This document shows, piece by piece, positions 3,846-19,500 of a stretch of DNA of 34,535 bases (within the stretch, counting starts at the first letter, position 1; each line of letters opens with the position of its first letter). The notes under the pieces were generated by a model, which did not search any database, was not told the DNA's origin, and worked only from the letters and a program-made list of their open reading frames with translations. Source of the DNA: Acidobacteriota bacterium. Lineage in GTDB: Bacteria > Acidobacteriota > Terriglobia > Acidiferrales > UBA7541. Position numbers and translations under genes: made by a program. Location of the stretch: positions 1 through 34,535 of the forward strand of contig PMAA01000017.1 of assembly GCA_003152355.1 (NCBI GenBank), given 5' to 3'.

Positions 3846-3987
3846 CCGCTTACCCGCGCGCGCCTGATCTGCGGTCGCGCGTCCAGCCGGCTGAAAGTCG
3901 ACCAGTAAGCGGCAGCTAAATCTCGCTAGAATGGGTGGCGATGGCAGCGACTCGATCCGATGACGTAGGCGACATCGAGCCGCTTAC
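3846..3987 (+). repeat. Three copies of octamer CCGCTTAC around the disA start
   Basis: CCGCTTAC occurs at 3846-3853, as its reverse complement GTAAGCGG at 3905-3912, and again directly at 3980-3987 inside the first codons of disA. The first two form an inverted pair 51 nt apart that brackets the upstream half of the promoter region. The second lies 14 nt before the candidate -10. Three exact copies in 142 bp are unlikely by chance and suggest a regulator's half-sites. No regulator is known to me for this motif. Confidence 0.4.
3927..3932 (+). promoter_or_regulatory. Candidate -10 box for disA (leaderless arrangement)
   Basis: TAGAAT is a good TANNNT/TATAAT-like hexamer. Eight bases (GGGTGGCG) separate it from the ATG at 3941, so transcription would start at or within a base or two of the start codon. 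This supports ATG 3941 over the in-frame GTG at 3935, which would lie upstream of the transcript's 5' end. Confidence 0.45.
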
Positions 3988-5053
3988 AGAGCCGAGGCTC
4001 GTCAAGGCGCTCGAGATGGTCGCGCCGGGGACGGCGCTCCGCGAGGGCATCGATCACATCGTCGATGCCCGTAGCGGCGGACTGCTGCTGATCGGGGAGC
4101 TCGACGAGCTCTCCTTCCTCTACTCCGGCGGCGTCAAGCTTGACATCGACTACACGCCGGGCATGCTCTACCAGCTGGCGAAGATGGACGGAGCGATCAC
4201 GCTCAACGCGAATGCGACCAAGATCGCGATGGCCAACGTGCAGTTGATGCCCGATCCGACGATCCTCTCGCTCGAAACCGGCACGCGTCATCGCACTGCC
4301 GAGCGCGTCGCCAAGCAGACCGACGCGCTCGTGATCGCGATTTCGCAGCGACGCGAGGTGATCTCGCTCTACCTGGACGGCGTCAAGTATGTGCTCGAGG
4401 ACATCCCGGCGGTGCTCGCCAAGGCGAACCAGGCGCTCGCGACGCTCGACAAGTACCGCGCCCGCCTCGACCAGGTCTCCACGCGACTCACGGCGCTCGA
4501 GTTCGAAGGCGGCGGCACGCTGCACGACGTGCTGACGGTGCTCCAGCGCGCGGAGCTCGTGGCTCGCATGGCGGTCGAGATCGAACGACACATCGTCGAG
4601 CTCGGCAACGAGGGGCGGCTGATCGAGATGCACCTCGAGGACACGATGGTCGGCACGGCGGCTGAGAAGGCAGCACTCGTACGCGACCACATCGCCTCCG
4701 GGACCGACGAGCAGTTCGCGTCGGTGCTCGAGCAGATCGGCCGCCTCGGTCACCATGACCTCCTTGACTTTGGCCAGCTCGCTGAGCTGCTCGGCTACGG
4801 CCGCAAGCTCAACACGCTGGACTATCCGGTGACGCCGCGGGGCTACAGGATCCTCGGTCGGATCCCGCGTCTGCCCAAGCTCGTCGTTGCGAGCATCGTG
4901 CAGGCCTTTGGCAGCCTCGACGAGTTGTTGGCTGCGAGCGATACCGAGCTCGAAAGCGTGGAGGGCGTTGGGGAGACCCGCGCGAAGGACATCCGCGAGG
5001 GCCTTCGCCGGCTGCAGGAGATCAACCTCGTGGATCGCTACTTGCAAACGTGA
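3941..5053 (+). CDS. disA: DNA integrity scanning protein DisA (diadenylate cyclase)
   Basis: DisA condenses two ATP into the second messenger c-di-AMP and scans DNA for branched structures as an octamer. The 370-residue protein has the DAC domain with both signature motifs, DGA (83-85, in AKMDGAITL) and RHRTAER (116-122, in GTRHRTAERVAKQ). A long helical linker follows (about 145-270). The C-terminal helix-hairpin-helix DNA-binding region has VVASIVQAFGSLDELLAA and VEGVGETRAKDIREGL. ATG 3941 is chosen because a TAGAAT box ends 8 nt before it. GTG 3935 would add two residues. carD follows after 43 bp, so the two are probably cotranscribed. Confidence 0.97.
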   Translation: MAATRSDDVGDIEPLTEPRLVKALEMVAPGTALREGIDHIVDARSGGLLLIGELDELSFLYSGGVKLDIDYTPGMLYQLAKMDGAITLNANATKIAMANVQLMPDPTILSLETGTRHRTAERVAKQTDALVIAISQRREVISLYLDGVKYVLEDIPAVLAKANQALATLDKYRARLDQVSTRLTALEFEGGGTLHDVLTVLQRAELVARMAVEIERHIVELGNEGRLIEMHLEDTMVGTAAEKAALVRDHIASGTDEQFASVLEQIGRLGHHDLLDFGQLAELLGYGRKLNTLDYPVTPRGYRILGRIPRLPKLVVASIVQAFGSLDELLAASDTELESVEGVGETRAKDIREGLRRLQEINLVDRYLQT

Positions 5054-5084
5054 CGTGCCCGCCGTTGTGAGCGGCCGCGCAATC

Positions 5085-5091
5085 AAGGAGG
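5085..5091 (+). promoter_or_regulatory. Strong Shine-Dalgarno preceding a non-canonical ATT start of carD
   Basis: AAGGAGG is a near-perfect anti-16S match. Five bases (ACACC) separate it from ATT at 5097, which is in frame with carD. The only canonical in-frame starts upstream are GTG 5055 and GTG 5067, and neither has a ribosome binding site. No in-frame ATG, GTG or TTG occurs between 5097 and the CarD domain itself. Confidence 0.6.
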
Positions 5092-5096
5092 ACACC

Positions 5097-5750
5097 ATTC
5101 CCGGCACAGCTGCACCAGACCTGCTCGAGGACGAGTTCGATCCGGAGGCCGAAGTCGATCTCGACGTTGAGGCCGAGATCGACGCTGAAGACGACATCGA
5201 CGTTGAGGTAGAGGTCGAGATCGAGGTCGAGTACATCGAGTTCGAGCTCGGCGACAACGTCGTCTACCCGCACCACGGAGCCGGCAAGGTTTGTGCGAAG
5301 GAGATGAAGGAGATCTTCGGCGAGAGGCGCGAATACCTCACGATCAAGATCCTCCACAACGACATGACCGTGATGGTGCCGACCGAGAACGCGGCGATCG
5401 CGGGACTGCGCCGCGTAATCGACGAGGAGACGGTCCAGAAGGTGCTCGACGTGCTCCGCGACGATGTCTCGGACATGCCGAAGAACTGGAACCGACGCTT
5501 CAAGCACAACCGCGACAAGATCAAGACAGGCGACATCTATGAGCTGTCCGAAGTGGTCCGCAACCTCGCGCTGCGCGAGAACGAGAAGGGCCTCTCAAGC
5601 GGCGAGAAGCAGATGTACACGCGGGCCAAGAAGATCCTTGCCTCGGAGCTGATGTACGCGCTCGACAAGAGCGAAGACGAGGCTGAGGCCTACCTCGATG
5701 AGCTGCTGTCGCGCTCGAGCGACGCCGGGACTCTGGCGAGTAGCCGGTAG
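5097..5750 (+). CDS. carD: CarD-family transcriptional regulator with acidic N-terminal extension
   Basis: CarD binds the RNA polymerase beta lobe and stabilises the open promoter complex, notably at rRNA promoters. From about residue 49 it is a normal CarD: FELGDNVVYPHHGAGKV opens the Tudor-like RNA-polymerase-interacting domain. The helical DNA-binding domain follows, with the conserved tryptophan in MPKNWNRRFKHN and then GDIYELSEVVRNL. Before it lies an unusual stretch of about 50 residues with 23 Asp/Glu and no Lys or Arg. The start is set at ATT 5097 from the AAGGAGG at 5085-5091, giving 217 residues. GTG 5055 or 5067 would lengthen it by 14 or 10. The acidic part must be translated, because no canonical start lies between it and the domain. 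ispD follows after 10 bp. Confidence 0.9.
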   Translation: MPGTAAPDLLEDEFDPEAEVDLDVEAEIDAEDDIDVEVEVEIEVEYIEFELGDNVVYPHHGAGKVCAKEMKEIFGERREYLTIKILHNDMTVMVPTENAAIAGLRRVIDEETVQKVLDVLRDDVSDMPKNWNRRFKHNRDKIKTGDIYELSEVVRNLALRENEKGLSSGEKQMYTRAKKILASELMYALDKSEDEAEAYLDELLSRSSDAGTLASSR

Positions 5751-5760
5751 CGGTTTGAAG

Positions 5761-6417
5761 ATGGCGGTCGCGCTCGTCGTGGCTGCCGGCCAGGGCGAAC
5801 GCCTGGGGTCGCGCGGGCCCAAGGCGTTCGTCCAGCTGAACGGCAGAGCGATGGTGGAATGGAGCATCGCTGCGCTCCGCTCGAGTCCCCTGATCGAGCA
5901 GATTGTTCTGGCGTTGCCGGCAGGGGCGACCGCACCGGCCGGCTGCATCGGCGTGACCGGGGGAGTGACACGCAACGACTCGGTCCAGGCTGCGCTCGCA
6001 GCGGCTCGGAGCGATCTCGACCCGGTGCTCATCCACGACGCTGCGCGACCACTGGTCACGGCGGCCCTGATCGCGGAGGTGCTCGCTGGGCTCGACGGCG
6101 TCGACTGTGCGATCGCGGCATCGCCCGTCACGGACACCACGAAGGAGTGCGACGGCGACCATCTGGTCCTGCGAACCCTCGACCGCAGCCGCCTCTGGAG
6201 AGTCCAGACCCCGCAGGTCTTCACGCGCGCCGCGCTCCGGCAGGCGCTCAGTCATTCGCCGCCCGGGGAAATCGCGCAAGCGACCGATGAAGCCATGCTC
6301 GTCGAGCGCTCCGGCGGCACGGTCCGTGTCGTCCCGGCGCCGGCCGAGAACCTCAAGGTGACAACGCCGCTCGATCTGAACCTCGCCGAGCTGCTGCTCA
6401 GCCGGCGAGTTGATTGA
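5761..6417 (+). CDS. ispD: 2-C-methyl-D-erythritol 4-phosphate cytidylyltransferase
   Basis: IspD transfers CMP from CTP to MEP in the third step of the MEP isoprenoid pathway. The 218-residue protein carries the nucleotidyltransferase loop AAGQGERLGSRGPKAF (residues 8-23), with the glycine-rich CTP loop and the conserved lysine. It also has IHDAARPL, with the catalytic-site Asp and Arg, then VQTPQVF and the C-terminal ENLKVTTPLDL signature. The ATG starts 10 bp after carD. Its stop overlaps the next start in TTGA. It is not fused to IspF. Both enzymes are encoded in the same run, separated by a PHP phosphatase gene. Confidence 0.96.
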   Translation: MAVALVVAAGQGERLGSRGPKAFVQLNGRAMVEWSIAALRSSPLIEQIVLALPAGATAPAGCIGVTGGVTRNDSVQAALAAARSDLDPVLIHDAARPLVTAALIAEVLAGLDGVDCAIAASPVTDTTKECDGDHLVLRTLDRSRLWRVQTPQVFTRAALRQALSHSPPGEIAQATDEAMLVERSGGTVRVVPAPAENLKVTTPLDLNLAELLLSRRVD

Positions 6418-15299: not shown

Positions 15300-16337
15300 A
15301 TGGGTTCGAATCAACTGAATAAACGGAAGCTCGGACGATCGGGTCTCGAAATCACCACGGTCGGATTTGGGGCCTGGGCCGCCGGTGGCGGAGGCTGGGC
15401 GTACAGCTGGGGACCGCAGGACGACGCAAAATCAATTGCATCAATTCGCCGCGCGGTCGAACGAGGCGCCAATTGGATTGACACGGCGGCCATCTACGGA
15501 ATCGGGCACTCGGAAGTGGTCGTACGTCGCGCCCTCGCCGAAATTCCACTCTCCGAGCAGCCATATATCTTCACAAAGTGCGGAGTCGTTGCCGATCCCA
15601 CGAAGCCGTACGAGCCCGGCTATCGGAGCCTCAAACCCGAATCCATCCGCCGCGAGCTTGACGCATCGCTGAAACGGCTTGGCGTCGAGCGCATTGACCT
15701 GTATCAGTTCCATTGGCCTGACGAAGCGGGAATTCCGATCGAGGATTCCTGGGCCGAGATGGATCGGCTTGTGCGCGAAGGAAAAGTCAGGGCCGCAGGT
15801 GTTTCGAATTTCACCGTGGAGTTACTCGAGCGCGCCGAGCGCATTCGTCACGTGGACTCGCTTCAGCCGCCATTCTCGCTAATTCGCAGGAATTCTGGCC
15901 AGGACGTGATTCCGTGGTGCGCTGCTCATGAGACGGGCGTAATCGTGTACAGCCCGATGCAGTCAGGCATTCTGACGGACACATTTGGTCCCGACCGTGT
16001 CGCTCGATTTGCCGACGATGACTGGCGCAAACGCAGCACCGAATTTCAGCAGCCAAATCTGGGCGCGAATCTCATGCTACGCGACGCTCTGAAGCCGATC
16101 GCGAGCCGGCACGGCGTCACAGTTTCTGCGGTAGCCCTGGCTTGGACACTGAGTTGGCCGGGCGTTACAGGAGCTATCGTAGGTGCTCGTTCGCCCGAAC
16201 AAGTGGATGGTTGGATCCAAGCCGGAACTCTGACGCTGACCGATCAAGATCTCACTGAGATCAGAGCCGCCATCGAGACATCGGGTGCCGGAACGGGCCC
16301 CATCGAGCCAGTACGGACGAAGACTGCGACGCGTTGA
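15300..16337 (+). CDS. Aldo/keto reductase
   Basis: A 345-residue NADPH-dependent oxidoreductase with the AKR (beta/alpha)8 barrel. The catalytic tetrad is visible: D61 (NWIDTAAIYG), Y66, K93 (FTKCG) and H138 (YQFHWPD). LGRSGLEITTVGFG opens the barrel, RAAGVSNF and VIVYSPMQSGIL are family motifs, and the C-terminal GAIVGARSPEQV binds the cofactor phosphate. Its form is that of the general-stress AKR11-like or YajO/IolS-type enzymes. The substrate is not predictable. ATG 15300 follows GGAGG (15287-15291). GTG 15273 is an inferior upstream start. It is separate from the RND operon by 168 bp. Confidence 0.92.
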   Translation: MGSNQLNKRKLGRSGLEITTVGFGAWAAGGGGWAYSWGPQDDAKSIASIRRAVERGANWIDTAAIYGIGHSEVVVRRALAEIPLSEQPYIFTKCGVVADPTKPYEPGYRSLKPESIRRELDASLKRLGVERIDLYQFHWPDEAGIPIEDSWAEMDRLVREGKVRAAGVSNFTVELLERAERIRHVDSLQPPFSLIRRNSGQDVIPWCAAHETGVIVYSPMQSGILTDTFGPDRVARFADDDWRKRSTEFQQPNLGANLMLRDALKPIASRHGVTVSAVALAWTLSWPGVTGAIVGARSPEQVDGWIQAGTLTLTDQDLTEIRAAIETSGAGTGPIEPVRTKTATR

Positions 16338-16452
16338 CGCGCAGTCATCTTCACGTAGCTTTCACCCAAATGAGCCGATACTTATGAACAACGCATGCAT
16401 TTGGTTTCTGAAACTTGACGTACTACGACACGTCTAAGACCAGAGCCGCCGA

Positions 16453-16475
16453 CTAGCGTTGGAGACGAACGCTAG
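16453..16475. promoter_or_regulatory. Perfect inverted repeat before the RND operon, candidate operator
   Basis: CTAGCGTT (16453-16460) and AACGCTAG (16468-16475) form a perfect 8-bp palindrome with a 7-nt centre, ending 30 nt before the permease start. Its 23-bp size suits a dimeric repressor such as a TetR or MarR member. No regulator gene lies next to the operon. It could also fold as an mRNA leader hairpin. The rest of 16338-16505 shows no convincing promoter hexamers. Confidence 0.4.
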
Positions 16476-16505
16476 AGTGAAGTACCGCCAGGAAAACTTG
16501 AATCT

Positions 16506-19500
16506 ATGTGGATCGTAAGGCTCGCACTCAGCAGGCCGTACACCTTTGTGGTTGCGTCCCTGCTCATCATTATCCTCGGCGTTGTGGCTATTTTGAATAC
16601 GCCGACCGACGTATTTCCGAATATCAACATTCCTGTCGTCAGCGTCGTTTGGACTTACTCGGGCCTGTCGCCTCAAGAAATGGCGGATCGGCTTACCGGC
16701 AACTCCGAGCGCGCGGCCACGACGACCGTAAACGACATTCAACATATCGAATCGACGTCGCTCAACGGCATCTCGATCATGAAACTTTTTTTTCAGCCCG
16801 GCGTGAGAATCGAAGGCGCTGTCGCGCAGGTGACCGCGATCTCGCAGACGATCTTAAAGGGAGCGCCTCCGGGGACCACGCCGCCGCTTGTCATCGCCTA
16901 TAACGCATCAAGCGTGCCAATTCTTCAGCTTGGCATGAGCAGCGCCACGCTTTCAGAGCAGCAATTGTTTGATCTCGGGACCAATTTTATCCGCCCGCGT
17001 CTCGTCACAGTTCCTGGCGCGGCGATTCCCTGGCCGTACGGGGGCAAGCAACGGCAAATTAACGTTGATCTCGATCCGCGCGCACTTTTCGAGAAGGGAA
17101 TTTCCGGCGCGGACGTCGTGGGCACGCTGAACAATCAGAACCTGATTTTGCCGCAAGGCACGTCAAAGATTGGCGACCGTGAATACAACATCGAATTCAA
17201 TAGCACGCCGAAGAAAGTGCCGGAACTAAACGACCTGCCGATCAAGATGGTGAACGGCGCGATGGTTTACGTCCGCGATGTTGCCTTCGTGCACGACGGC
17301 GCATCGTTTCAAACCAACATCGTCCGGCAGGATGGTCGCCGCGGCGCGCTGCTCACCGTTCTCAAGAACGGGAACGCGTCAACCCTCGCCGTCGTATCCG
17401 GCATCGTCAACATGCTCCCGGATATCGAGGCCTCGCTGCCGCCTGGCCTCACACTGCGCAAGACGATCGATCAGTCTTTGTTCGTTCGCGCCGCGGTTGA
17501 TGGCGTAGTCAAAGAAGCGACCATCGCCGCGTGTCTCACGGCGATCATGATCCTGATATTCCTCGGGAGCTGGCGCAGCACCGTCGTCGTCGCCGTTTCG
17601 ATTCCGCTCTCGATTCTCACTTCGCTTCTCGTTTTAAGCGCGCTAGGCGAGACGATCAACATCATGACCCTCGGAGGCCTTGCCCTCGCGGTCGGTATTC
17701 TCGTCGACGACGCCACCGTCGAGATCGAAAACATTAATCGGCTGCTGCCCGAGGGCAAGAGCCTTCACGAAACGATTCTGACCGGCGCGCAGCAAATCGC
17801 GACGCCCGCATTCGTCGCCACGCTCAGCATCTGCATCGTCTTCGTCCCAATTTTCTTCATGCGCGGCATCGCCGGATATCTCTTCCGGCCGCTCGCCGAA
17901 GCTGTTGTGTTCGCGATGCTCGCTTCCTATTTGCTCTCGCGTACCATCGTCCCTACCCTGGTGCTCTTCTTCTTCCGCGCCGAGCGCCGCAAACTTGCGG
18001 CGCATCGGGAAGCGCCCGAGAAGGCCGGCTGGTTCAAGAGATTCCATGAGAGGTTTGAGCACGGTTTCGACAAATTCCGCGACCGTTACGTCGAAGCGCT
18101 CGATTGGTGCCTGCAGAACCGCCTGCTTTTCGGCACTTTGTTTCTTTCGTTTTGCGCAGCCACGATGTTCCTGGTTCCATTCCTGGGCTCAGACTTGTTT
18201 CCCACCGTGGATTCCGGCCAACTTCGTCTTCACCTCCGCGCGCCGATCGGGATGCGAGTCGAAGAAACGGCCGCGCTGTGCGATCGCGTCGAAGCTGCGA
18301 TTCGCAAAACCATTCCGCCGGAAGAGTTGAGCGGAATTCTCGACAATATCGGCTTGCCCTACAGCGGAATTAATCTGTCGTACACTACAAGCGGCGTCAT
18401 CGGAACATCAGACGCGGAAATCCTGATCTCGCTCAAGCCCGGCCATCACCCTTCGGCCGGCTATGTACGCGAGCTTCGGCAGAGCCTCCCTGGCGAGTTT
18501 CCCGGCTCCGACTTTTTCTTTCAGCCCGCGGACATCGTCAGCCAAATCCTCAATTTCGGCTTACCATCGCCGATTGATATTCAGCTCGTAGGTCCGGATC
18601 TCTTGGCGAATTTTGATGTCGCGCGTGAAATGCTTCCGCGAATCAAGGAAATCGGCGGCGCGGTGGACGTTCATATCCAGCAGGCTCTCGATCTGCCGAA
18701 GCTGAGGATCAACGTGGACCGCACTCGTGCCGAGACCGTTGGATTCACGCAGCAGGACGTCGCGAACAATGCGCTGGTAGCCCTGACGACGAGCTTTCAA
18801 ACGGCGCCGAACTTCTGGATCAGCCCTCAGGGCATTCCGTACAGCGTCTCCACGCAGACGCCGCAGTATCGCGTTGACTCCCTTTCGGACGTACAGACGA
18901 TTCCGGTGATTGGGAAAACGGGGCAGTCTCAGATACTCGACAACGTGGCGAACATTAGTCGCGAAGTCGGGCCTGCGGTCGTGACCCACTATGACACGCA
19001 GCCGGTGGTGGAAATTTACGCGAGCGCGCAAGACCGCGACCTGGGCGGCGTCGCTTCGGATGTCAATCGCGTCGTCGAATCATTCAAAGGCAAGCTGCCG
19101 CGCGGAACCACGGTCGCCGTTCGCGGCCAGGTAGCAACCATGCGCACATCGTTCGTGAGCCTCGGAGTTGGCCTCATGTTTTCGATTCTTCTTGTCTATC
19201 TCCTGATGGTTGTCAATTTTCAATCGTGGGCTGACCCGTTCATCATCATCACCGCGCTCACCGGTACTTTCTCGGGCATCGTGTGGATGCTGTTTATCAC
19301 CCATACGACGATGAGTGTGCCATCGTTAATGGGCGCGATTATGTGCATCGGAGTCGCGACGTCCAACAGTATTTTGCTCGTCACATTCGCCGGAAGCCAA
19401 ATGCGCGAAGAGGGTAAAACTTCCACCGAGGCGGCTCGTGGCGCAGGATTCACGCGGCTTCGCCCGATTTTGATGACGGCGCTCGCGATGATCATCGGTA

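Follow-up and report, generated by a model that had tools for sequence, protein, structure and literature searches.

Conserved non-canonical start codons are known in a handful of bacterial genes, and gene finders miss them because they allow only ATG, GTG and TTG. The start of infC is AUU in Escherichia coli and AUC in Streptomyces, is conserved and is expected to be rejected by IF3, and that of Streptomyces sigR is a conserved, IF3-repressed GTC (AGGAGGTG), with the variant GTT in 2/34 cases (PMC5472188). In addition, ccpN (AUA) and cvfC1 (AUU) of Staphylococcus aureus have extended Shine-Dalgarno (SD) sequences and give about 10% of the AUG output, that of ccpN going to 30% in rich medium (PMC13009471). 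This report discusses the start codon and the acidic N-terminal arm of carD in contig PMAA01000017.1 of assembly GCA_003152355.1 (34,535 nt, the whole stretch analysed, called the window below; positions are 1-based and on the forward strand) and in its relatives. CarD is an RNA polymerase binder and an activator of ribosomal RNA (rRNA) transcription in mycobacteria. Its amount is under control in more than one way: mycobacteria cut CarD on starvation by means of an antisense RNA and the Clp protease (PMC8820732), and in Caulobacter the level of CdnL is tightly controlled and the protein is cleared (PMC11034885). These controls in relatives provide a rationale for keeping CarD low. No report of a non-canonical carD start was found in the open-access literature searched.

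The carD start codon in the window and its relatives

The start of carD, in the window and in nearly all of the clade that bears the arm, is almost certainly a near-cognate AUU or AUC codon behind a near-perfect SD. After the disA stop codon, positions 5080-5099 of the window read CAATC AAGGAGG ACACC ATT, with the ATT in the carD frame and a gap of 5 nt between SD and ATT. The initial annotation had placed the probable start here, with AAGGAGG (5085-5091) five bases before an in-frame ATT (5097-5099), and the sequence agrees: canonical starts in the carD frame are limited, from the disA stop to ATT 5097, to GTG 5055 and GTG 5067, both SD-less, and no in-frame ATG, GTG or TTG lies between ATT 5097 and the domain. 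The protein is CarD, as it carries both PF02559 and PF21095, and the gene order is radA, disA, carD and an ispD-like gene. The features, with their evidence (ORF, open reading frame), are as follows.

5085..5091, + strand: Shine-Dalgarno sequence AAGGAGG (sequence; conserved among loci)
5097..5099, + strand: predicted ATT start codon of carD (ATT/ATC kept across the order; codon periodicity from the next codon on)
5097..5750, + strand: carD coding sequence of 217 codons, followed by stop TAG at 5748-5750 (ORF, sequence)
5097..5228, + strand: acidic N-terminal arm, 44 codons, 21 Asp/Glu, 0 Lys/Arg, predicted to be disordered (residue counts; AlphaFold)
5161..5231, + strand: low-complexity GAG/GAC/GTC tract, source of the arm expansion (Tandem Repeats Finder, TRF, periods 18, 12 and 6)
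5241..5420, + strand: RNA-polymerase-interacting domain CarD_TRCF_RID, PF02559 (Pfam, E 5.6e-14, above cut-off)
5439..5699, + strand: CarD C-terminal domain, PF21095, CarD_C (Pfam, E 2.2e-34)
5055..5057, + strand: in-frame GTG, rejected as start (without SD, not conserved)
5067..5069, + strand: in-frame GTG, rejected as main start (without SD; at the aligned place ATG in L034, nothing in most loci)
3935..5053, + strand: disA, 5' neighbour of carD (ORF; Pfam DAC, DisA-linker and HHH matches)
5051-5053, + strand: disA stop codon TGA (ORF)
5761..6417, + strand: ispD-like gene 3' of carD, probable start ATG 5761 (ORF list; named from sequence)

For the comparison, a protein search of the contigs of named genomes gave 80 Solirubrobacterales loci, and searches of the class and the phylum added further genomes. 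The resulting set comprises 137 distinct loci, 132 of them in the arm-bearing clade, which is labelled Solirubrobacterales and kin on the basis of the tree and the 80 named loci. Starts were picked by a script that scored contiguous matches to AAGGAGG and excluded disA; GAGGA motifs in the acid-rich arm mimic SDs. Hand reading was used for L094, L099, L107, L167, L190 and the basal loci. By script alone, an SD with a near-cognate start was found in 126/137 loci (ATT 87, ATC 38, CTG 1), and script and hand reading together gave ATT 88, ATC 38, CTG 1 and ATG 5 for the arm-bearing clade. Thus, a near-cognate start of carD is held in nearly every sampled member of the Solirubrobacterales, far beyond the genome of the window. 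Orthologues with a conserved ATG or GTG elsewhere would have spoken against the annotated ATT, but in 127/132 arm-bearing loci a near-cognate codon stands at SD distance.

The SD, the spacing and the AT dinucleotide of the start are near-invariant in this clade: at least 6 contiguous matches to AAGGAGG are present in 111 of the 126 scripted loci, and the spacing is 5 nt in 88 and 6 nt in 21 of them. In the nearest relatives the site reads GAGGAGGACACC ATT (L033) and AAGGAGGACATC ATT (L034), the rest of the spacer having diverged, and the single CTG (L060, 1483-1485) occupies the conserved start site with AAGGAGG in front. Four of the five ATG loci (L191, L192, L194 and L197) are one clade, with ATG at the equivalent site behind the same SD, and because of this position these exceptions confirm where the start lies; in L190 the ATG is two codons 5' of the ancestral start site. 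Although many of the sequences are metagenome-assembled genomes (MAGs), the pattern is kept across MAGs and isolates (including L037, L040, L051, L052, L063, L074 and L109), so sequencing error is ruled out as an explanation. General use of AUU or AUC starts in these organisms is also unsupported: among 343 coding ORFs in 400 kb of Svornostia abyssi, an SD of at least 6 matches followed by ATT was found once, at carD itself, and the 20 ATC and 17 CTG matches of the same scan are not separated from chance intragenic matches.

The coding signal begins where the near-cognate start predicts. Codon periodicity sets in directly 3' of the start codon, the mean information per codon position being 0.65/0.75/0.27 bits downstream, a coding signature, and a flat 0.23/0.19/0.21 bits upstream, where no reading frame is conserved among the compared loci. 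If carD instead began at a canonical codon further upstream, such as GTG 5067 or GTG 5055 of the window or the ATG of L034, AAGGAGGACACCATT would be ordinary coding sequence (KEDTI), and the frame is indeed open 5' of the ATT in the window, with the in-frame ATG of L034 aligning with GTG 5067. However, 83/126 scripted loci have no canonical in-frame codon between disA and the ATH start, in 23/126 the frame is closed by a stop no more than 6 codons before the start, and the distance from the disA stop to the start (15 to 128 nt, median 50) favours no frame (36/41/48 for the three remainders modulo 3). By these absent codons, stops, random frame and missing periodicity an upstream start is refuted for the clade and is very improbable as an explanation. 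Just as improbable is a start in or just before the domain that would leave the arm untranslated: the TTG or GTG with which carD opens in basal Thermoleophilia does coincide with the beginning of the domain, and some loci have an ATG a few codons 5' of it, but the arm is codon-periodic from its first codon, its acidic motif is common across the order, and 35/126 scripted loci, including species with no replacement codon, lack any in-frame ATG, GTG or TTG from disA to the domain. An intragenic SD can stimulate frameshifting, as in prfB, and the SD-like sequence might bring ribosomes in from a different frame through programmed frameshifting. Some out-of-frame ORF with a canonical start spans the site in 50/125 loci, but such ORFs are split over both frames (29 and 27) and missing from the other 75, and initiation fits both an SD that ends 5-6 nt before AT[TC] and the ATG of one clade at the same site, which makes frameshifting the least probable of the three. 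There is no indication that an RNA hairpin masks the start, as folding from -30 to +30 is weaker than that of shuffles (mean z +0.68).

As for the provenance of the window, the contig looks misbinned. Other CarD copies of the same genome match the window CarD at just 33-34%, and the CarDs of the order-relatives of the source genome match it at 33-37% and are of another type (ATG-[DE]YKIGDKVVYPNHGVG). By contrast, 1400 bp of the disA-carD-ispD stretch are identical in the Solirubrobacterales MAG palsa_651 (PKXY01000026.1).

Probable selection on the third base and a possible role of IF3

In the loci with a spacing of 5 nt, the third base of the start is T in 61, C in 27 and A or G in none. An internal isoleucine codon would be expected to be ATC, since the isoleucine codons of the same CarD domains are ATC 869, ATT 61 and ATA 8; the ratio of ATT to ATC is 87:38 at the start versus 61:869 in the domains (odds ratio 33, p 2.6e-56), and reading the codon as an internal one is therefore disfavoured. 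At sixteen 4-fold degenerate sites of the CarD domain, G makes up 34% and no site is free of purines. When start-codon changes were mapped on a tree of DisA and CarD, 17 T<->C and 2 pyrimidine-to-purine (Y->R) changes were counted at the start versus 117 T<->C and 259 Y->R at the sixteen 4-fold sites, with a p of 4e-7 that is to be taken as indicative, given a quick tree built by one method and the codon bias that also acts on the 4-fold sites. Since G is rare at the start and common at these sites, AUG has probably been selected against and the weak start kept by selection at carD.

The explanation that best covers these observations, and which we consider probable, is that translation of carD begins at a conserved near-cognate codon, held weak by selection and limited by IF3. 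Initiator tRNA would pair with AUU or AUC at two positions and mismatch at the third, and the near-perfect SD would recruit 30S subunits and so compensate for the weak codon. IF3 would then reject most of these complexes, giving a low rate of CarD synthesis, about a tenth of that from AUG as in the measured precedents, and CarD output would depend on IF3 and on growth state. The codon may be kept weak because CarD activates rRNA transcription and would need to be held at a low level or matched to nutrient status. The cases of sigR, infC and ccpN make it likely, by analogy, that the carD start depends on IF3; coupling of carD translation to growth state is a tentative possibility. More tentative still is an order-wide translational valve on the rRNA activator, in which CarD would follow the ratio of IF3 to ribosomes or the growth state, the AUU/AUC start of infC itself having been lost and that of carD weakened stepwise.

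Three points weigh against a weak, selected, IF3-limited start: a quick single-method tree and codon-biased 4-fold sites underlie the test of AUG avoidance; the five loci with ATG (the clade of four and L190) evidently survive, so that the weak start is not indispensable; and infC of these genomes has a canonical start. The start might have no regulatory meaning if the arm was captured together with a codon that followed a strong SD, the SD compensating and AUU and AUC drifting into each other. Strong SDs can support weak codons, and one clade and L190 reverted to ATG without evident loss; but drift should often reach G, as it does at the 4-fold sites, and prokaryotic starts move toward AUG, which is preserved across prokaryotes, AUU having been adopted once from 61,358 ancestral AUG starts (PMC5622118). 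Drift without function is accordingly an unlikely account, though a less remote one than the alternative start positions. Concerning infC, the 18 genomes of Solirubrobacterales and kin that were compared (L223-L240) have a conserved canonical GTG/ATG start (GTG-PVPRRFDRRPPERD) without SD, L231 being unclear. The IF3-sensitive translation suggested by the initial annotation is plausible from the precedents, but its comparison with infC fails within this order, infC is rejected as an in-genome precedent, and because infC here begins with GTG or ATG the parallel is mechanistic only. The infC of palsa_651 (16257-16740; L241 and L242) lies in two overlapping frames, which implies a frameshift or an assembly error.

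The acidic arm and the origin of the start

The first 50 residues from the ATT contain 23 Asp/Glu and no Lys/Arg, the same count as initially given, and the arm up to the domain boundary has 44 residues with 21 Asp/Glu. Its low-complexity GAG/GAC/GTC coding tract, also noted at first, is resolved by TRF within 5161-5231 into units of 18, 12 and 6 bp that encode the arm of the window. Across the order the arm has a median of 18 residues, 39% Asp/Glu, a mean of 0.5 Lys/Arg and a median net charge of -7, and its motif is a loose one, for example I[PST][DE]..EE.LEDLE. Consequently, the highly acidic character claimed for the arm extends to the whole order and the length does not: the 44 residues of the window are a local expansion of an ordinary arm of about 18, and the clade of the window has arms of 44-67 residues. 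Expansions of more than 30 residues also occur outside that clade (L059, L093, L110 and L199). In the AlphaFold model of the window CarD the two domains have high confidence, with a predicted local distance difference test score (pLDDT) above 90 over most of the RNA-polymerase-interacting domain; residues 20-41 are below 50 and there is no secondary structure before residue 54, and the arm is probably disordered. Homology to chains of 4kbm and 6edt suggests that RNA polymerase beta is its binding partner and that it would stabilise the open complex. The initial annotation proposed that the arm could compete with nucleic acid, and it is conceivable that it competes electrostatically or has a modulating role at RNA polymerase.

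The 20 carD loci of basal Thermoleophilia (L243-L262) have no arm: behind an SD, the start coincides with the beginning of the domain and is TTG, itself a weak codon, in 17, GTG in 3 and ATG in none. In other actinobacteria carD also starts at the domain, with ATG or GTG in most loci read. Because both groups start at the domain, the arm and the AUU/AUC codon belong together as a derived trait of a single clade. Judging by the loci sampled, the start appears to have weakened in steps: most other actinobacteria have ATG/GTG, basal Thermoleophilia have TTG, and the Solirubrobacterales have AUU/AUC. Acquisition of the arm with a relocation of disA beside carD fails as an explanation, as in several basal loci carD follows disA but lacks the arm.

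Significance and comparison with known systems

Thus, the gene of a global RNA polymerase regulator retains a near-cognate start throughout most of an order, with AUG apparently selected against. The N-termini of CarD in these genomes are likely misannotated and the acidic arm overlooked. Furthermore, translation initiation may be the step that sets the dosage of CarD, which would link initiation fidelity to rRNA transcription, and the approach used here, a conserved AT[TC] behind an SD set against 4-fold sites, is usable genome-wide for further cases.

The infC genes of E. coli and Streptomyces resemble carD in their conserved near-cognate AUU/AUC start, but carD encodes a transcription factor, and there is therefore no direct feedback loop. 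Like carD, sigR is an actinobacterial gene for a transcription regulator with a near-perfect SD and a conserved non-canonical start that has a synonymous-looking variant; the codon and the gene are different, the sigR start belongs to one genus whereas that of carD is order-wide, and the dependence on IF3 that was shown for sigR is proposed for carD. The genes ccpN and cvfC1 share with carD a conserved weak start, an extended SD and a regulatory product, and differ from it in that their starts were mapped experimentally and in that the genes and the phylum are others. Finally, mycobacterial CarD (PDB 4kbm, 4ilu and 9e7v) has the same RNA-polymerase-interacting and C-terminal domains as the window CarD and can be aligned with it from residue 48-49. 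The solved CarD proteins, however, have no acidic arm, one match extending into a tag linker, and mycobacterial CarD, unlike that of the window, has a canonical start and its level is set by antisense RNA and the Clp protease (PMC8820732).
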